DNA from: a virus
IMG/VR virus record: IMGVR_UViG_3300021599_000073
Span: 1-47,053 of that record
DNA length: 47,053 bases
Strand: one strand, 5' to 3'
Made by a program: the position numbers and the translations under genes. Shown piece after piece: positions 2,566 through 17,452 of this stretch; the first letter of the stretch is position 1; every line of letters starts with the position of its first letter. Under the pieces are notes generated by a model. That model had not been told where the DNA came from, did no database searches, and worked only from the letters and a program-made list of their open reading frames with translations.

Positions 2566-3225
2566 ATGAAACTGAGTCATTCATACAGTTCAATTAAACT
2601 GTACGAGAACTGCCCCTACCGATACTTCCGTCAGCGTGTTCTGAAGGATGTGGTGGATGAGGGGGGTGAAGCCAGTAAGCATGGCGAACGGGTACATGCG
2701 TACCTTGAGCATCGGCTTAAATCCAACAACTTGTTGCCACAAGAAATCGCCCACTACGAACCGCTTTGTCAATCGGTAGAACGACTAGCCGAGGGGGGTG
2801 ATTTGCATATCGAACATGAGATGGTGCTGACTGAGAACCTTACACCAACAGGTTGGTGGGAGGCAGATGCATGGCTCAGATCTAAACTTGACATCCTTGT
2901 AATAAACGATACCATCGCCAATGTGATGGATTGGAAAACAGGTAAACGAAACGCTGACCAATTCCAAATGCAACTGTTCGCCGCCCAAGTGTTTCAACAC
3001 TTCCCCGATGTGCAGACTGTAAGGACTAGCCTAGTGTGGCTCAAGACTATGGAGATGGACACAGAGACTTATTACAGGGCGCAGATGAACGAACTGTGGG
3101 CAGATACCATGAAGCGTATTCAGCGTATATACAAGTCGTTGGAGCATGACAACTGGCCTATGAAACCATCAGGGCTATGTCGCTTTTGCCCTGCCCGACA
3201 CGACTGTGTTAGTGCTAGGGTTTAA
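2566..3225 (+). CDS. PD-(D/E)XK exonuclease, RecB/Cas4-like
   Basis: 219 residues. The N-terminus SYSSIKLYENCPYRYF is the usual opening of PDDEXK_1/RecB-family nucleases. KHGERVHAYLEHRL supplies the helical GxxxH motif, LDILVI and VMDWKTGKR supply the catalytic D and D/ExK, and MQLFAAQVF the Qxxx(Y/F)-like motif. Four cysteines (one near residue 16, then CRFCPARHDC at the C-terminus) match the C...CxxCx5C layout that binds a 4Fe-4S cluster in Cas4 and AddB. It probably degrades or trims DNA ends during replication or recombination. Neighbouring VRR-NUC and SNF2 genes support a DNA-processing module. Confidence 0.88.
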   Translation: MKLSHSYSSIKLYENCPYRYFRQRVLKDVVDEGGEASKHGERVHAYLEHRLKSNNLLPQEIAHYEPLCQSVERLAEGGDLHIEHEMVLTENLTPTGWWEADAWLRSKLDILVINDTIANVMDWKTGKRNADQFQMQLFAAQVFQHFPDVQTVRTSLVWLKTMEMDTETYYRAQMNELWADTMKRIQRIYKSLEHDNWPMKPSGLCRFCPARHDCVSARV

Positions 3226-10936: not shown

Positions 10937-13900
10937 CTAGATAGGTAGGGTAGCCCGTTGGTGTAGATAGACAAGAAGTTCAACGCACCTGTGGCAATAG
11001 ACGCACCCAACTGGATCAGACTGGTTGAGGCACGGATCTGAGAAACCAGTTTGCCCGAACCAAAGTCAGACTCATCTACGTTGCGGTTGCCATCCAAGAA
11101 CGCCATTGTCTTAGCGGCTTCATTGTAGAACTCGTTGCCACGACGCAGACCATTGACAGGGTTAGTCGTCTCGTACATGTACTTGTATTGCTGGTACTCA
11201 CGGCGGGCTAGTGTCTTGGCTTCAGGCGAGGCTTTAGGATCAGCCTCCACACGGTCAGCAGTTACACGCAAGGATTCGAGCAGTGCTTTGTCTCCGTTCC
11301 ACAAGCGTTGGGTTCTGCCAAGGCTGAGGTTCATCAACTCACTAACACGAGGGCGCATCATCATCTTAGCCACGGTGGATGCACGGGACTCGATATGACG
11401 GGAGATTGCCATAATGCCATCACGCTTATCGCCGGGGGTAAAGGCACGCTGCAAGCGGTTACGGGCTGAACTGTTCTGACGGGTAAGGGCAACCGTGATC
11501 TGCTCCATCTTCTTAGGATTCAGAGCAACGTCGAACTGGCGCAAGCCACGGATAAAGTCGTTGTAGTTTAATTCTGGCGGTGCAGCAATAGCATCAAGGG
11601 CGGCTTCGTGGATGGCTTCTAGCCTGACCTTCTTAACCACAAAACTCTGGGTGTTCTCGTCATAGACTTCGATCTCGTAGTCTTTATCCTCAAACAAATC
11701 GTTGACGCTGTCTGCCATAGCACGGGCTTCGCTAGGTGTTTCCATCTGCGAGAACACGAACTGCTCACGATAGGAATCTCGTGGGCGTAGGAGGCGACCA
11801 GTCTTAGGATCAGTAACTTGTACCCGAACTTGGTACTGACCTTCACGCAAGATAGGGGTATACCCGGTAGCCAACGAACGCTTAGTAAACAGGTCGGCAT
11901 CCTTAGCGGATATGTCAGAGAGAACAATTTGCTTGACTCGGTTCTGAATCACAAACTTATTTTCAGGTGTGATACTGACTTCCTTACGCATTGCTTCCAA
12001 AGACTTCACTGCATCATCAGCCTCTTTGCCTTTGAAGAAAGCCTTGAACCCATCAATGTCGGCTTGCTTTTGGGCAGGGTCAACTGCGCTTGCGGCGATT
12101 GCTTTGTTCAGTGCAACAAGGAACTCGTTACCCAGTGTCATGGACTCAGTGTCAAACTTAGGATAACCACGCTCGTCAAGGGTAATCTTGTCCGTGTAAA
12201 TGTCACGGTACTTGGTAATCATGCGGTCAAGGAAAGTCTGTGAGTCCTTAGACATCTGCTTTCCGTCAGTCATTAACTCGCCAAGTTCACGGTAGGCGTT
12301 GCCACGCTCGGCAAATGCGCCTAGGTATCTAGCCCGAAGTAGTTGCAACTCCACATCATTGACTGATTCACGGAGGGATAAGTATCCAGTCCACTCAATG
12401 CTTTGCTCGGTAATGTCCTTATAGCCAGCAAAGCGCTCAGTTTTCTCTACCATCTTGTCACCCTCAGGGACAAGCACAGTGTAGTCAAACCCGTCACGCA
12501 TCATCTCAAACGTAATCTGTCCCTGCTTGGCGAGCCTGTTGATCTCTAGTTGGTTAGCCAGTAGGTTGCCGTTGTCGTCAAAGGTATAGAGAGGTGCGCT
12601 ACCTAGTTCGCTTAGGCGGTCAATACGAGATACTGCCCAACGCTGACCAGCATAGAGGGCTTCGTTAATCCGCTTGGTCTGCTCAGTCGTAGTACCACTG
12701 AACTCAACAAGGCCAAGGTCGATTGACCGGCCTAGAACCTTACGCAACTTCTCATTGTTCTTAACCTTGATGCTCATGGAAATGTCACGACCTTGGTCAA
12801 TGATTCTTTCCAACTCGTTCATGCCGGGGTTAAGACGGGCGCGGTAGTTCAGTAGGCTCAAGAAGGTGGCTTTGAACTTATCGTAAGAAGCCAGACTGTC
12901 TACGCCCTGAGCCTTGAGGTACTCCCAAGACTCATTAAATGTTTTGGGTACGCCACCGATGGTGTCAATCATTAGACCAGCCATACGGTTGTCGGCGTAG
13001 TAGTCACCAGCCGTAGCAAAGCGACCTGTTCCACTTGTAATCTTGCCGTACTCCACTACATACAGGCGCTTGATAACGTCGGACACATCAAAGGCTATGC
13101 CGGGATTACCAGTGCGGTTGTAGGCACGGGCTTGACTGACGAGGTAGCGTACTGCCTCATCGCCAAAACGGAAGCCGATGCGGTTTAGGAATCCCTTGAT
13201 GGCGTTCCATACTTTAGCCACGATACTGGTATCTAGCGAGGCGGCATAGTCAGCCAAGTATTCCTCAACGGCTTCAGCACGGGACATCCCCTCAGCATCC
13301 ATCGCCGCATCAACGGCACTTTGCATGTATGGATGTTCTTGGTACAGACGCTCCATCAGGGCATCGAACTTATTGGCAGGGATGATGCCACGCAAACCGA
13401 AGTGACCCATCGTTTCATGGGCAAGTACAAACTTTAAGTGTTGGTCTGTTGCAATGCGGTCGCTAAAGATAATGACGTTGCCATCACCAAACGAATAGCC
13501 CGCAGCCGATACCGTGTCGAAGTCACCTTGTGGGCGAGCCGCCACAGCACGGGCGTACAACTCAGGGTTGCGTGCCTTCAGGTCAGCCTGATTAGCGTAG
13601 GTAAATACACTGGGCTTGCGAGCAAGACGTGACAAGAAGTTGCTGATTGTCTGACGTACCTTCAGCAGCGGCAGCGGGGAGGTAATTGGACTGCCATCAT
13701 CCCGCTTGTAACGACCAGAGTCAAAGCCACTGGGCTTACGACCAAACCCGTTCCAGTCATCCAACGAGAACGGTGGGGTGTACTCACCCGGTGCTTCTTT
13801 TTTCTTCTTGCCTTTACCCTTTGCTTGGACTTCTTCTTGTTCAGCCGCTACTAGATCGGGGTCAACATCCGTATCCAAGTCACGTCTTGTTGACTTGAAC

Positions 13901-13977
13901 AGTCCTAGGTGTACCGTCAGGATTGAAGTAAGCCGATATTGGCTTGTTTGCGTAGGCCACAAAGGCTTGCAGCCCAT
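10900..13977 (-). CDS. giant ejection/polyvalent protein, central fragment with zincin-like motif
   Basis: 1025 codons, of which about the first 30 (MGCKPLWPTQTSQYRL) look like out-of-frame read-through of the preceding fragment. Real sequence begins near RDLDTDVDPDLVAAEQEEV. Around residue 187 the motif HETMGHFGLRG followed by EAVEEYLADYA resembles the HExxxH plus downstream Glu of zincin-like metallopeptidase domains in large phage polyvalent proteins. The rest is mostly helical. It ends at TNGLPYLSSYTLTVLSSTMR, the last residues being out of frame with relatives. It probably acts inside the virion or in the infected cell with the 13880-17452 and 9566-10936 parts. Confidence 0.75.
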   Translation of the reverse strand: MGCKPLWPTQTSQYRLTSILTVHLGLFKSTRRDLDTDVDPDLVAAEQEEVQAKGKGKKKKEAPGEYTPPFSLDDWNGFGRKPSGFDSGRYKRDDGSPITSPLPLLKVRQTISNFLSRLARKPSVFTYANQADLKARNPELYARAVAARPQGDFDTVSAAGYSFGDGNVIIFSDRIATDQHLKFVLAHETMGHFGLRGIIPANKFDALMERLYQEHPYMQSAVDAAMDAEGMSRAEAVEEYLADYAASLDTSIVAKVWNAIKGFLNRIGFRFGDEAVRYLVSQARAYNRTGNPGIAFDVSDVIKRLYVVEYGKITSGTGRFATAGDYYADNRMAGLMIDTIGGVPKTFNESWEYLKAQGVDSLASYDKFKATFLSLLNYRARLNPGMNELERIIDQGRDISMSIKVKNNEKLRKVLGRSIDLGLVEFSGTTTEQTKRINEALYAGQRWAVSRIDRLSELGSAPLYTFDDNGNLLANQLEINRLAKQGQITFEMMRDGFDYTVLVPEGDKMVEKTERFAGYKDITEQSIEWTGYLSLRESVNDVELQLLRARYLGAFAERGNAYRELGELMTDGKQMSKDSQTFLDRMITKYRDIYTDKITLDERGYPKFDTESMTLGNEFLVALNKAIAASAVDPAQKQADIDGFKAFFKGKEADDAVKSLEAMRKEVSITPENKFVIQNRVKQIVLSDISAKDADLFTKRSLATGYTPILREGQYQVRVQVTDPKTGRLLRPRDSYREQFVFSQMETPSEARAMADSVNDLFEDKDYEIEVYDENTQSFVVKKVRLEAIHEAALDAIAAPPELNYNDFIRGLRQFDVALNPKKMEQITVALTRQNSSARNRLQRAFTPGDKRDGIMAISRHIESRASTVAKMMMRPRVSELMNLSLGRTQRLWNGDKALLESLRVTADRVEADPKASPEAKTLARREYQQYKYMYETTNPVNGLRRGNEFYNEAAKTMAFLDGNRNVDESDFGSGKLVSQIRASTSLIQLGASIATGALNFLSIYTNGLPYLSSYTLTVLSSTMR

Positions 13978-16900
13978 CTTTTCGTACCTGCGCCCACATC
14001 TCAGTCAACTTAATGAGCATCTTGGCTTGAGCGTCAACAGTCTGTCCAAAGCCAGTGCGGGTATTAATGTCCCTGATATAGTCTAACAACTTGATCGCAG
14101 AGTTATCCTTGATCGTATCTTTATCCGGCGTAACTGGGGTATTGCCAATAGCCTCGTTCTGATATTCGGCTGGCACATTTTGCAGGTTCATAATCTGCTT
14201 GGCTTTTTCAAGCAGGTCAGTAGCAATAATCATTTGGAACAATGGCGTTTGATTACCAGCCTTGTCCGTAGCCGAGGTCTCTCCTTCAGTAGCACTTTGG
14301 GTACGCAAGAACCTGACCAGTGCCTTCTTAAAGACAGCATCCTTTTCAACGCTATCAAGGAAAGCCTTAGCCTCAACATCCAATTGAGCCTTGCGGTCAT
14401 TAGAGTCAGGGGTATAGGCGTACTCCATCACACCAAGAAGGCTAATTACTTTCTCTGACTCAGACTTAGTTTCCTCAACCGACCGCATCAAATCTTCCAT
14501 CAACTCGCGGGATGTCTGATCTTTGGGCGGCATGCGCCGTGTCGGAGGTGGGGTGGTTACAACTGCGGCTGCGGCGGCTTTTTCTTCCGCTAATTTACGA
14601 ACAGCCTCGGCAATCTGTGCTTCACGCAGTTTTCTTGCTTCGTCTGTGTCAGTTGCTGGAGCGGCTGCCGCAGCAGCCCTACCCTTTTTTAGTGCGGCTC
14701 CTTTCTTAGGAGCAGTTACTTCGTCTTGCTTTTTGAGGGCTTGACCTTTTCCGGCAGGTTCTTTGGTACGCCGTACTTCTTTGCCCACTTCTTCGCCAGT
14801 TTTGGTTCCTTTGCGTAGAGATACGCTTGCTGCGCCTTGCTTTTGAACGGCATCTTGTTTCCCTTTCTTTTGCTTGGCAGGTTTTTGTACTTCACCCTCA
14901 AACTCACCGTTTGTAAACTTACCCTCCATAACGGTTCCGTCTATATCTTCAAACCTACCTTGACCATTGGTAGTACCGTTCTTCCATTGACCGGTGTAAG
15001 TACTACCATCAGGGTAAGTCATTGCGCCCGTACCGTTTGGCTCATTATTTTTTAGTTGCCCAGTGTATATAGCACCGTCCTCGTACTCGACCGTACCTGT
15101 TCTGGACTTAAGAGTTTCGGCTTTGCGTGCTTTAGCGGCAGTGGCTGGAGTAACCGCCTTGCCTGTTGGCTTAGCAATTGCAGCACCCTGCTCAACTGTT
15201 GGGACAACTTTCTGTGGTTTGGCTACGCTCTTGAGTGCTGCTACCGATGGCTGACCACGCTGAGTAAACAACGGGATCTGTGTCTGTGCGGGTAAACCCG
15301 GAATAGCAATTTGATCTGCGGTCAAAGCGGGGGCAACAGGTACTCCAATGCCACGACGCAAGCCCTCGCCTCGTGAAGGGCGAGGTGTGCCAGCCAAAGG
15401 CTGACCACGGTCAAACATAGAAATCTGCCTAGGCGCACGCTGTTGCGCTTGAACCATTGGCATAGGCTGTGGCGCAGGGGTAGGAGCAGGAGTTTCGGTA
15501 GGTGCTTGGGCAGCCAAGTCTAACTGACGTTGCGCTGCGGCAATGTTACCGAGGCGGTCGAGGTCTGCCTGTCTTTGTGCAGCCGCTTGTTGTTGGGCTT
15601 GTGCCTGAGCCTGACGACTTTGCGCCAAGTTCATCTGCTGTTCCATGATCGGATTGACTGACGTTTGTTGATTAGTAAACCCGATACCAGTGGGGGCTTC
15701 TGACCCAAACTGCAATACACCTTGATTTGGATTAACAAATGTTGGTGCTGGCAAAGCCAAGCGGTCAGAAGGAGGGGGTGTTATAGCCTGTTGTTCGTAC
15801 TGCCCAGTAGTCTCATTCCAAACCATACGGGGCGCTTGTTCACCTACGTTCATACTGCGCTGGCGCACCTCACCTACTGTGGATGGGCCAAGGTCTAAAA
15901 CACCTTGCGGGCCAAAGTCACCGGGGGTAACCTGCCCAAAGAAAGGGCGTTCGCTTGCTGTGCGAGGACGCACCACACTATCAGAACCAATACCACCGAT
16001 AAGGTCGTTGGCTTGACCTACCCCACCAGTTTGTACGGAGCCACCTTGCATGTTTGCCGCAGGAGAAACGACTGTAAGCGCAGTCGATGTTGGCCCTGCT
16101 TTTTGTTCCAATAAGTTAGTTGGTTTATTTGTGGGAATGGCTTCTTTAGCACGACCACGCAAGAGTCCAGATGCCCCGCCAACAGCCGTGCCAGTAATCG
16201 CACCAGCCGCACCGGCTTCAAGCACACGGGATGCAAGGTCAGGGGCTGCTTCACCACCAGCCACAATAGGCGCAAGTGCGCCCGTAACTAATTCTTGTCC
16301 TGCTTCAGTCAGACCCTCAGCCACAGTACCGAGAGCGCCTTCTCTTAGACCTAATGCTCCACGCTGTCCAGCGGCTTTAAGTTTGGTAGTCCCCGCAGTA
16401 ACGGCAGGGAGTTTATTACCCATGTACCGAGTAAAGAGCAAGAACTCTGGGAGACTTTCAAGTGCGGCGTATGGGGCGGCAGCAAGCAAGGCTGCGTAAG
16501 GGTTAGCCACACCTGCTTCTTCAGTGGCTAAATAAGACTCACCGAAACCAGCAACATAGTTAGAAGCCAGTGATGCACCAGCGGCATAAGTAGCCGCAGC
16601 GGCTCGTTTGAGTAAGGCTTTTTCTGCTACCTCTAACCCAGCCCAACCCACTTGTGCTTTCTTTAGGGCAGCGGCTTTGATCTGTTGCTTGACTGCTTCT
16701 TTTGCACCAACGCTAAGAACTGCACCGCCGACTGTACCGGCAGGGCCACCTGTTGCAGTACCAATTGCAGCGCCACCTAGAGCCACGGCAACAGACTCAA
16801 GAAGGCTTGGGCCAGCCTGTGCAAGCGAAGCCATCGCCCAATCCCATGCTTTAGATCCGCTATCAATCTCAGAGAACTCACGCTGGAATGGTGCAGTCTT

Positions 16901-17452
16901 ATTCAGGTCTGCAATTTGTTGCAGCACAATATCTTTACCAGCAGTCTCAAGTCCTTGGATACCAGTCAAATCACCGATACCTTGGATCGCACCACCAGCG
17001 ATCATCTGAAGCGAGTCAACGCCACGACCAAAGTTCTTTTTCATCAACCTTCCGGTTGATGGGTTCTTAATAGACTGAAGGAACTGTCCATAGGCTTGTT
17101 GACTAAGTGGAACCCAGTCAGCCGTATCGGTAGGTAAACCAGTACCGGGGCCACCGGCTAACGACTCAGCCTCTAGCGCAGAGGTAGCATCGTCCGCAGA
17201 GAACCGCATGCCATTAACAAACAACTGGTTCTTTGATGGGCTAAAGGCAATCGACGGCGGTTGTTTAATATCAGGCAGACGGAACTCGTTAACCTTAACT
17301 AACCGCTCCCCCAATGCAGCCATGTCGGTAAGCGACGGGCCAAGATTCCCCAACCCCACGCCTGAGGTGGGTGTGTAGGGAGCAAATGGTTGTGGGGCAT
17401 CGGTAAGCCCCATTGATTCAAATGCAGGACTTGCGAAGGGGGAGTTAGCCAT
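13880..17452 (-). CDS. giant ejection/polyvalent protein, N-terminal part with MORN repeats
   Basis: 1190 residues. Residues 200-430 are glycine/alanine-rich with glycine-zipper segments (GGAAIGTATGGPAGTVGGAV, GAAGAITGTAVGGASGLLRG), typical of proteins that insert into membranes during DNA ejection. Residues 480-770 are Gln/Pro-rich disordered linker. Residues about 785-855 hold three MORN units (YTGQLKNNEPNGTGAMTYPD, YTGQWKNGTTNGQGRFEDID, MEGKFTNGEFEG). A Lys/Ala-rich linker follows, under which a second gene lies in another frame. It ends with DGTPRTVQVNKT and a TGA where the next frame (+1) continues. It overlaps the transglycosylase stop by one base (TAATG). Confidence 0.8.
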   Translation of the reverse strand: MANSPFASPAFESMGLTDAPQPFAPYTPTSGVGLGNLGPSLTDMAALGERLVKVNEFRLPDIKQPPSIAFSPSKNQLFVNGMRFSADDATSALEAESLAGGPGTGLPTDTADWVPLSQQAYGQFLQSIKNPSTGRLMKKNFGRGVDSLQMIAGGAIQGIGDLTGIQGLETAGKDIVLQQIADLNKTAPFQREFSEIDSGSKAWDWAMASLAQAGPSLLESVAVALGGAAIGTATGGPAGTVGGAVLSVGAKEAVKQQIKAAALKKAQVGWAGLEVAEKALLKRAAAATYAAGASLASNYVAGFGESYLATEEAGVANPYAALLAAAPYAALESLPEFLLFTRYMGNKLPAVTAGTTKLKAAGQRGALGLREGALGTVAEGLTEAGQELVTGALAPIVAGGEAAPDLASRVLEAGAAGAITGTAVGGASGLLRGRAKEAIPTNKPTNLLEQKAGPTSTALTVVSPAANMQGGSVQTGGVGQANDLIGGIGSDSVVRPRTASERPFFGQVTPGDFGPQGVLDLGPSTVGEVRQRSMNVGEQAPRMVWNETTGQYEQQAITPPPSDRLALPAPTFVNPNQGVLQFGSEAPTGIGFTNQQTSVNPIMEQQMNLAQSRQAQAQAQQQAAAQRQADLDRLGNIAAAQRQLDLAAQAPTETPAPTPAPQPMPMVQAQQRAPRQISMFDRGQPLAGTPRPSRGEGLRRGIGVPVAPALTADQIAIPGLPAQTQIPLFTQRGQPSVAALKSVAKPQKVVPTVEQGAAIAKPTGKAVTPATAAKARKAETLKSRTGTVEYEDGAIYTGQLKNNEPNGTGAMTYPDGSTYTGQWKNGTTNGQGRFEDIDGTVMEGKFTNGEFEGEVQKPAKQKKGKQDAVQKQGAASVSLRKGTKTGEEVGKEVRRTKEPAGKGQALKKQDEVTAPKKGAALKKGRAAAAAAPATDTDEARKLREAQIAEAVRKLAEEKAAAAAVVTTPPPTRRMPPKDQTSRELMEDLMRSVEETKSESEKVISLLGVMEYAYTPDSNDRKAQLDVEAKAFLDSVEKDAVFKKALVRFLRTQSATEGETSATDKAGNQTPLFQMIIATDLLEKAKQIMNLQNVPAEYQNEAIGNTPVTPDKDTIKDNSAIKLLDYIRDINTRTGFGQTVDAQAKMLIKLTEMWAQVRKDGLQAFVAYANKPISAYFNPDGTPRTVQVNKT
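14716..14853 (-). CDS. embedded small basic protein (MPFKSKAQQ type)
   Basis: 45 residues, read in the +1 frame inside the 1190-residue ejection-protein gene on the same strand. The peptide starts MPFKSKAQQAYLYAKEP, continues KLAKKWAKKYGVPKNLPEKV and ends in Lys/Ser. This strongly resembles the small phage proteins with an (M)PFKSKAQQR-YLYA...AK-WA...LPEKV pattern that I know as stand-alone genes. A purine-rich AAGAAAGGGAAACAAG lies directly before the ATG. Function unknown. Either it is a true overlapping gene, or a former gene captured by the ejection protein and now read in another frame as linker. Confidence 0.55.
   Translation of the reverse strand: MPFKSKAQQAYLYAKEPKLAKKWAKKYGVPKNLPEKVKPSKSKTK

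Follow-up and report, generated by a model that had tools for sequence, protein, structure and literature searches.

The window, that is, the whole stretch of 47,053 nt analyzed here, is an IMG/VR virus record (IMGVR_UViG_3300021599_000073) of a podovirus whose genes include those for a portal/head-tail adaptor, a terminase, and an internal virion protein. The minus strand carries a giant gene that is broken into three open reading frames (ORFs), the first of which encloses a small second ORF (Table 1). The original prediction had placed a small gene with a start codon and a purine-rich leader in the +1 frame of this long gene. An ORF of 45 codons was found at exactly this position, fully within the 1190-aa ORF and on the same strand, with its ATG, an AAGG leader, and its TAA stop all present. 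Its translation is MPFKSKAQQAYLYAKEPKLAKKWAKKYGVPKNLPEKVKPSKSKTK, followed by the stop, and the frame of the giant translates the same stretch as DAVQKQGAASVSLRKGTKTGEEVGKEVRRTKEPAGKGQALKKQDE. The leader, AAAAGAAAGGGAAACAAG, is rich in purines and has a Shine-Dalgarno match of 4 nt (AAGG).

Table 1. Features of the nested locus and of its putative host gene in the window
Feature	Position	Strand	Remarks
Nested small gene, PFKS family (MPFKSKAQ...LPEKV...)	14716..14853	(-)	45 aa; ATG at 14853, TAA at 14716-14718
Shine-Dalgarno-like AAAGGG in the purine-rich leader 5' of the nested ATG	14861..14866	(-)	From sequence
Host gene, N-terminal 1190 aa of the putative giant virion protein	13880..17452	(-)	Intact in the sister phage L002 (2701 aa)
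Giant gene continued past the frame break, 1025 aa	10900..13977	(-)	
C-terminal part of the giant gene past the second frame break, 416 aa	9566..10816	(-)	
MORN repeats encoded by the giant gene directly 5' of the nested gene	14888..15109	(-)	PF02493, E=1.6e-7; phrog_7324

The closest relative of the window is IMGVR_UViG_3300027697_000031 (L002), which is about 90% identical to it. Compared with L002, the giant gene of the window has two frame-breaking deletions, at 13884-13901 and at about 10932; one replaces 84 nt by about 16 nt, the other is about 118 nt long, and together they leave the three ORFs listed in Table 1. These breaks may reflect real damage to the gene, a sequence variant, or a fault of the assembly. 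A tblastn search with the L002 giant showed that the C-terminus of the host protein is homologous to the DarB-like/PLxRFG giants, such as those of F116, H66, and Parlo (E down to 7e-26), which makes the proposed assignment of the host as an ejection-protein gene plausible; we infer that the giant is a virion protein from its homologs annotated as structural or DarB-like. The nested gene probably sits in a disordered linker of this protein. The MORN repeats of the giant are matched by the MORN protein of a Streptococcus prophage.

The small gene had also been proposed to represent a stand-alone family of phage proteins, and many homologs, both stand-alone and nested, were indeed found. Against a profile built from 26 stand-alone relatives only, the nested frame scored E=1.1e-20 in a search of the six-frame set. 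The window protein has all of the residues that are invariant in the alignment of the PFKS family, as we call it here (P2, F3, S5, A7, Q8, P17, A20, L33, and P34). Its match to PHROG 1375 is weak (E=0.0026), and this group of small phage proteins is matched by 12 of 17 stand-alone and nested PFKS members, with 5.5e-6 for the best one; no record was found that annotates PHROG 1375 members as nested. Searches of Pfam, NCBIfam, and PADLOC with the window protein gave no family, DUF6496 (PF20106) included, and a search of Rfam gave no match. Solved structures (PDB) contained nothing meaningful or informative, and the best structural neighbors in BFVD are uncharacterized phage proteins of 43-44 aa. 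With a pI of 10.3 (family mean, 10.8), the window protein is basic, and it is modeled as a helix hairpin with a pLDDT of 81. It contains no cysteine, hence no lipobox, and thus differs from an o-spanin lipoprotein.

In L002, the nested site is occupied in the same frame by another small basic gene, MPLKKGSSNKVVSQNV..., which belongs to the MPLKKG (PLKKG) family and matches PHROG 2423 (E=2e-7). The PFKS and PLKKG families are unrelated (hhalign probability, 0.4%), and the fold model obtained for the PLKKG protein was of poor quality. The nucleotide alignment of the window and L002 is about 90% identical up to the common leader and ATGCC, is lost across the small gene, and returns at the common tail AAG..GAAGTAA, so that one gene has been replaced cleanly by the other between the same flanks. 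L002 lacks a PFKS gene, and the window lacks a PLKKG gene. A second clean swap was found between L114 and L116. On the tree of the giant C-terminal regions, where the window and L002 are sisters with 98% identity, well-supported branches carry at least four changes of cassette type. Each of the 19 records with a strong match has one copy, PFKS or PLKKG and never both; many of these records were picked for carrying one of the families, and the informative part of the count is the absence of a second copy. The nested site therefore appears to be an exchangeable slot through which phages exchange whole genes within a gene. Since the replacement is by an unrelated gene between the same flanks and each surveyed genome keeps one gene or the other, it suggests that PFKS and PLKKG do equivalent jobs. 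In two relatives of the giant gene without a nested copy (L284 and L285), the head module includes a DUF6496 gene that stands alone, and DUF6496 is possibly a third interchangeable family. It resembles the small protein of the window in being small and basic, although the window protein does not match PF20106. These DUF6496 genes lie among head genes at about 4383 in L284 and about 4279 in L285 (reverse strand).

Scans with both families showed that phages commonly carry them as stand-alone genes and that long ORFs enclose many copies. Portal-based searches recovered distant relatives whose giant ORFs span 2700-2820 aa. Those with homology over the site have a nested PFKS or PLKKG gene; L005 and L010 have neither. 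The small frame is at +1 in every clear nested case; in the near-identical pair L265/L266, the host ORF is unclear. The PFKS family is hosted by at least four genes among which no relationship could be detected, namely, a P22-like scaffold and three kinds of giant, one of them DarB/PLxRFG-like. In terms of host groups, these are giants A/B, which are mutually homologous, giants C, giant D, and a gene of about 410 aa between portal and coat; the last was assigned as the scaffold from its position and from homologs among the structural proteins of Flavobacterium and Maribacter phages. When giants A/B, C, and D are compared with one another, any alignment is confined to the stretch in which the long frame reads through the cassette. 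Read in the host frame, a nested gene therefore makes unrelated proteins look homologous, in that the profile alignments of unrelated giants cover the cassette only. A nested copy is also present in a cultured isolate, Flavobacterium phage elemoF (NC_055853.1). Neither small family was found in the phages F116, Parlo, Mwe-JY07, Y7, and 252E42.2, which have DarB-like/PLxRFG giants.

The substitution pattern in the overlap was compared with that in the flanks for three host groups. Within the overlap, the substitutions at host codon positions 1/2/3 were 0.28/0.08/0.07, 0.23/0.08/0.08, and 0.30/0.15/0.20, compared with about 0.30-0.46/0.21-0.44/0.45-0.64 in the flanks. The third positions of the long frame are thus near-frozen and its first positions the most variable, a pattern that is flipped relative to the flanks in all three groups, and within the overlap the small frame is better conserved than the long one. 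In sliding windows, host position 3 was less variable than position 1 in 56 of 57, 38 of 40, and 156 of 178 nested windows, compared with 4-8% elsewhere, counts that come from sequences with common ancestry and are not independent events. The pattern indicates that the small frame is under strong purifying selection. The long frame is open across all of the nested genes (39/39 and 9/9), compared with 7/30 and 0/65 of the stand-alone ones; because the nested copies were chosen for an open long frame, the weight lies on the stand-alone contrast and on the expectation under free synonymous codons, which is about 1.5% for PFKS and 0.9% for PLKKG. For the window protein itself, freely chosen synonymous codons would leave the frame of the giant open about 1.2% of the time. 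The substitution pattern of the small frame and the maintenance of an open long frame together argue that both frames are in use, and the +1-frame ORF of the window is confirmed, as a prediction from sequence, to be a genuine protein-coding gene.

A chance open frame that merely resembles a phage protein might be considered, given that the Lys/Ala-rich linker read by the long frame is of low complexity and that the PHROG 1375 match is weak. However, a chance frame would explain neither the score against the stand-alone-only profile nor the flipped substitutions in three groups, nor would it account for the other real gene that L002 has at this position. Between elemoF and ctfjg026, moreover, blastn over the 650 bp surrounding the site matches only the small gene, and the 79% nucleotide identity is restricted to it. 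A chance frame is thus refuted by the frame-specific selection, and we regard it as extremely improbable. It could also be argued that programmed frameshifting turns the small frame into an alternative C-terminus of the N-terminal half of the giant rather than a separate protein, since the two frames share a strand and some codons 5' of the ATG are also open in the small frame (GTG start at 14907). This part of the frame was not seen in common among the relatives listed, and it is the ATG or GTG start and the MP[FL]K N-terminus that are conserved and common to the stand-alone genes. Furthermore, Shine-Dalgarno matches of at least 4 nt precede 82% of the nested starts in giants, a share that is 22% for control ATGs and 58% for the starts of long genes. 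Frameshifting is therefore very unlikely, and internal initiation at its own ATG is most likely the route by which the nested gene would be expressed. Two nested genes (L112 and L115) have GTG as the start codon, preceded by an AAGGAG or GGGAG leader. The scaffold-hosted copies have no Shine-Dalgarno match, in phages in which only 7% of the long genes have one, and their leaders are 82% purine.

The original prediction allowed for either a true overlapping gene or one that was captured and overprinted. Its existence as a real gene holds, and "captured" fits better than "born by overprinting." Nested viral genes usually originate by overprinting (PMC8227390), and the small gene could accordingly have been born within the linker of the giant. 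However, the same family is widespread as a stand-alone gene in unrelated phages, and sister phages carry an unrelated small gene at the same place, which together argue that an existing gene came in; de novo birth at the site is very improbable. A selfish or neutral moron-like cassette, carried for its own benefit at a site that is merely tolerant of insertions, would be in keeping with the exchange of two unrelated families and with the variable positions of the stand-alone copies, but it is less easily reconciled with exactly one copy per genome, with strong purifying selection, and with the stand-alone DUF6496 gene of the relatives that lack a nested copy. We consider such a cassette unlikely, though less so than overprinting. 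The cassette of the window might also be a chimera of metagenome assembly, in view of the two apparent deletions in the giant and the fact that a search for further contigs with the flanks of the window returned only L002. Nevertheless, both frames stay open through the cassette, which has its start leader and stop in common with L002, and similar swaps occur in independent contigs (L114/L116), which makes a chimera highly improbable.

The captured gene could have entered by random insertion or by loss of the stop codon of an upstream gene. Random insertion should favor the other offset for PFKS, because this offset is open far more often (23% versus 1.5%), but the rarer one is used in all clear nested cases. 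This rarer offset is also found at the border of stand-alone genes. In 41 of 63 stand-alone PLKKG genes, codons 3-4 (CTT AAA) encode the TAA of the upstream gene (+8), and this gene is the portal gene where tested. Members of these families were seen as stand-alone genes, as genes that overlap the upstream gene by 11 or 23 nt, and in the completely nested state. Codon 3 is CTC or TTC in all 49 distinct nested genes, and the long frame reads CAA there (CCA in one). We suggest that the upstream stop, a TAA lying across codons 3-4 (CTT AAA or TTT AAA), would have been lost by a synonymous T-to-C change; as this TAA is encoded by codons 3-4 of the small gene, a single synonymous change can begin the swallowing of the gene. 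Recombination would then have spread and swapped the cassettes, and recombination between nested cassettes would keep the frame automatically. The nested state thus probably arose by loss of an overlapping stop, a route that is putative for the giants. A giant split around a small gene was sought in all fetched loci and none was found, so that stop-loss fusion of two giant-gene halves was not accepted as a demonstrated origin and is put forward for the giants as a hypothesis. In five stand-alone PLKKG genes with CTC, the upstream gene extends to the next stop, at +20. In L127, L146-L148, and L190, the C-terminus of the portal protein runs 4 codons deeper into the PLKKG gene, whose codon 3 is CTC and not CTT, and these phages are possible natural intermediates of stop loss.

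Stand-alone copies of both families often adjoin portal, scaffold, coat, or lysis genes, and the PLKKG gene often stands directly behind the portal gene. Because the stand-alone copies are so often located in the portal-scaffold-coat module, a putative role in head assembly or DNA packaging comes to mind, and from gene neighborhood and chemistry we tentatively predict that the small protein is a late accessory of one of these processes, an assignment that may well prove wrong. Taken as a whole, the predicted reading, i.e., a genuine +1 gene that is internally initiated, occupies an exchangeable slot, encodes a basic helix-hairpin head accessory, and became nested by stop loss, appears very likely to us. 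With more reservation, we propose that the giants might hold a frame-locked slot for unrelated small genes, which would have been created by one synonymous stop-erasing change, and in which the nested gene could serve as a recombination anchor between otherwise unrelated giants.

The architecture has a precedent in the Rz/Rz1 spanins of tailed phages, which are known in embedded, overlapped, and separated arrangements and in which embedding has been proposed to arise, as one possibility, by loss of a stop codon (PMC6139136). As in Rz/Rz1, a longer gene on the same strand contains the whole of the small gene in a different frame. However, Rz and Rz1 are functional partners and are embedded in either the +1 or the -1 frame, whereas the PFKS hosts are unrelated virion genes and the frame of PFKS and PLKKG is always the same. 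In a survey of spanins, no family was seen to combine embedded with non-embedded members (PMC6139136), whereas here a single family occurs stand-alone, overlapping, and embedded and can be replaced in place by an unrelated gene, as by the PHROG 2423/PLKKG gene of L002. What appears to be new is the occurrence of several states in one family, the unrelated hosts, and the replacement by unrelated genes, and our search of the literature for this nested family found no report of it. As existing families occur in all of these states and are exchanged without breaking either frame, the origin of overlapping genes becomes directly testable.

The findings also point to a layer of phage genes that is overlooked by gene callers. 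In the annotated records with nested copies that were checked (elemoF and ctfjg026), only the giant gene is annotated. Direct tblastn searches of the small proteins against annotated phages gave no or weak matches, which we attribute to their shortness and low complexity, and profile searches of whole records succeeded. Unannotated stand-alone PFKS genes lie between listed genes in C75C1 (L278: about 3001-3096, OQ984151.1) and in S-CBS2 (L280: about 3001-3108, NC_015463.1). In elemoF, a second, truncated small-gene start, MPFKSKKLMK followed by a stop codon, is present in the same frame about 400 nt upstream of the nested gene (L300:7984-8016, NC_055853.1) and looks like a decayed duplicate.
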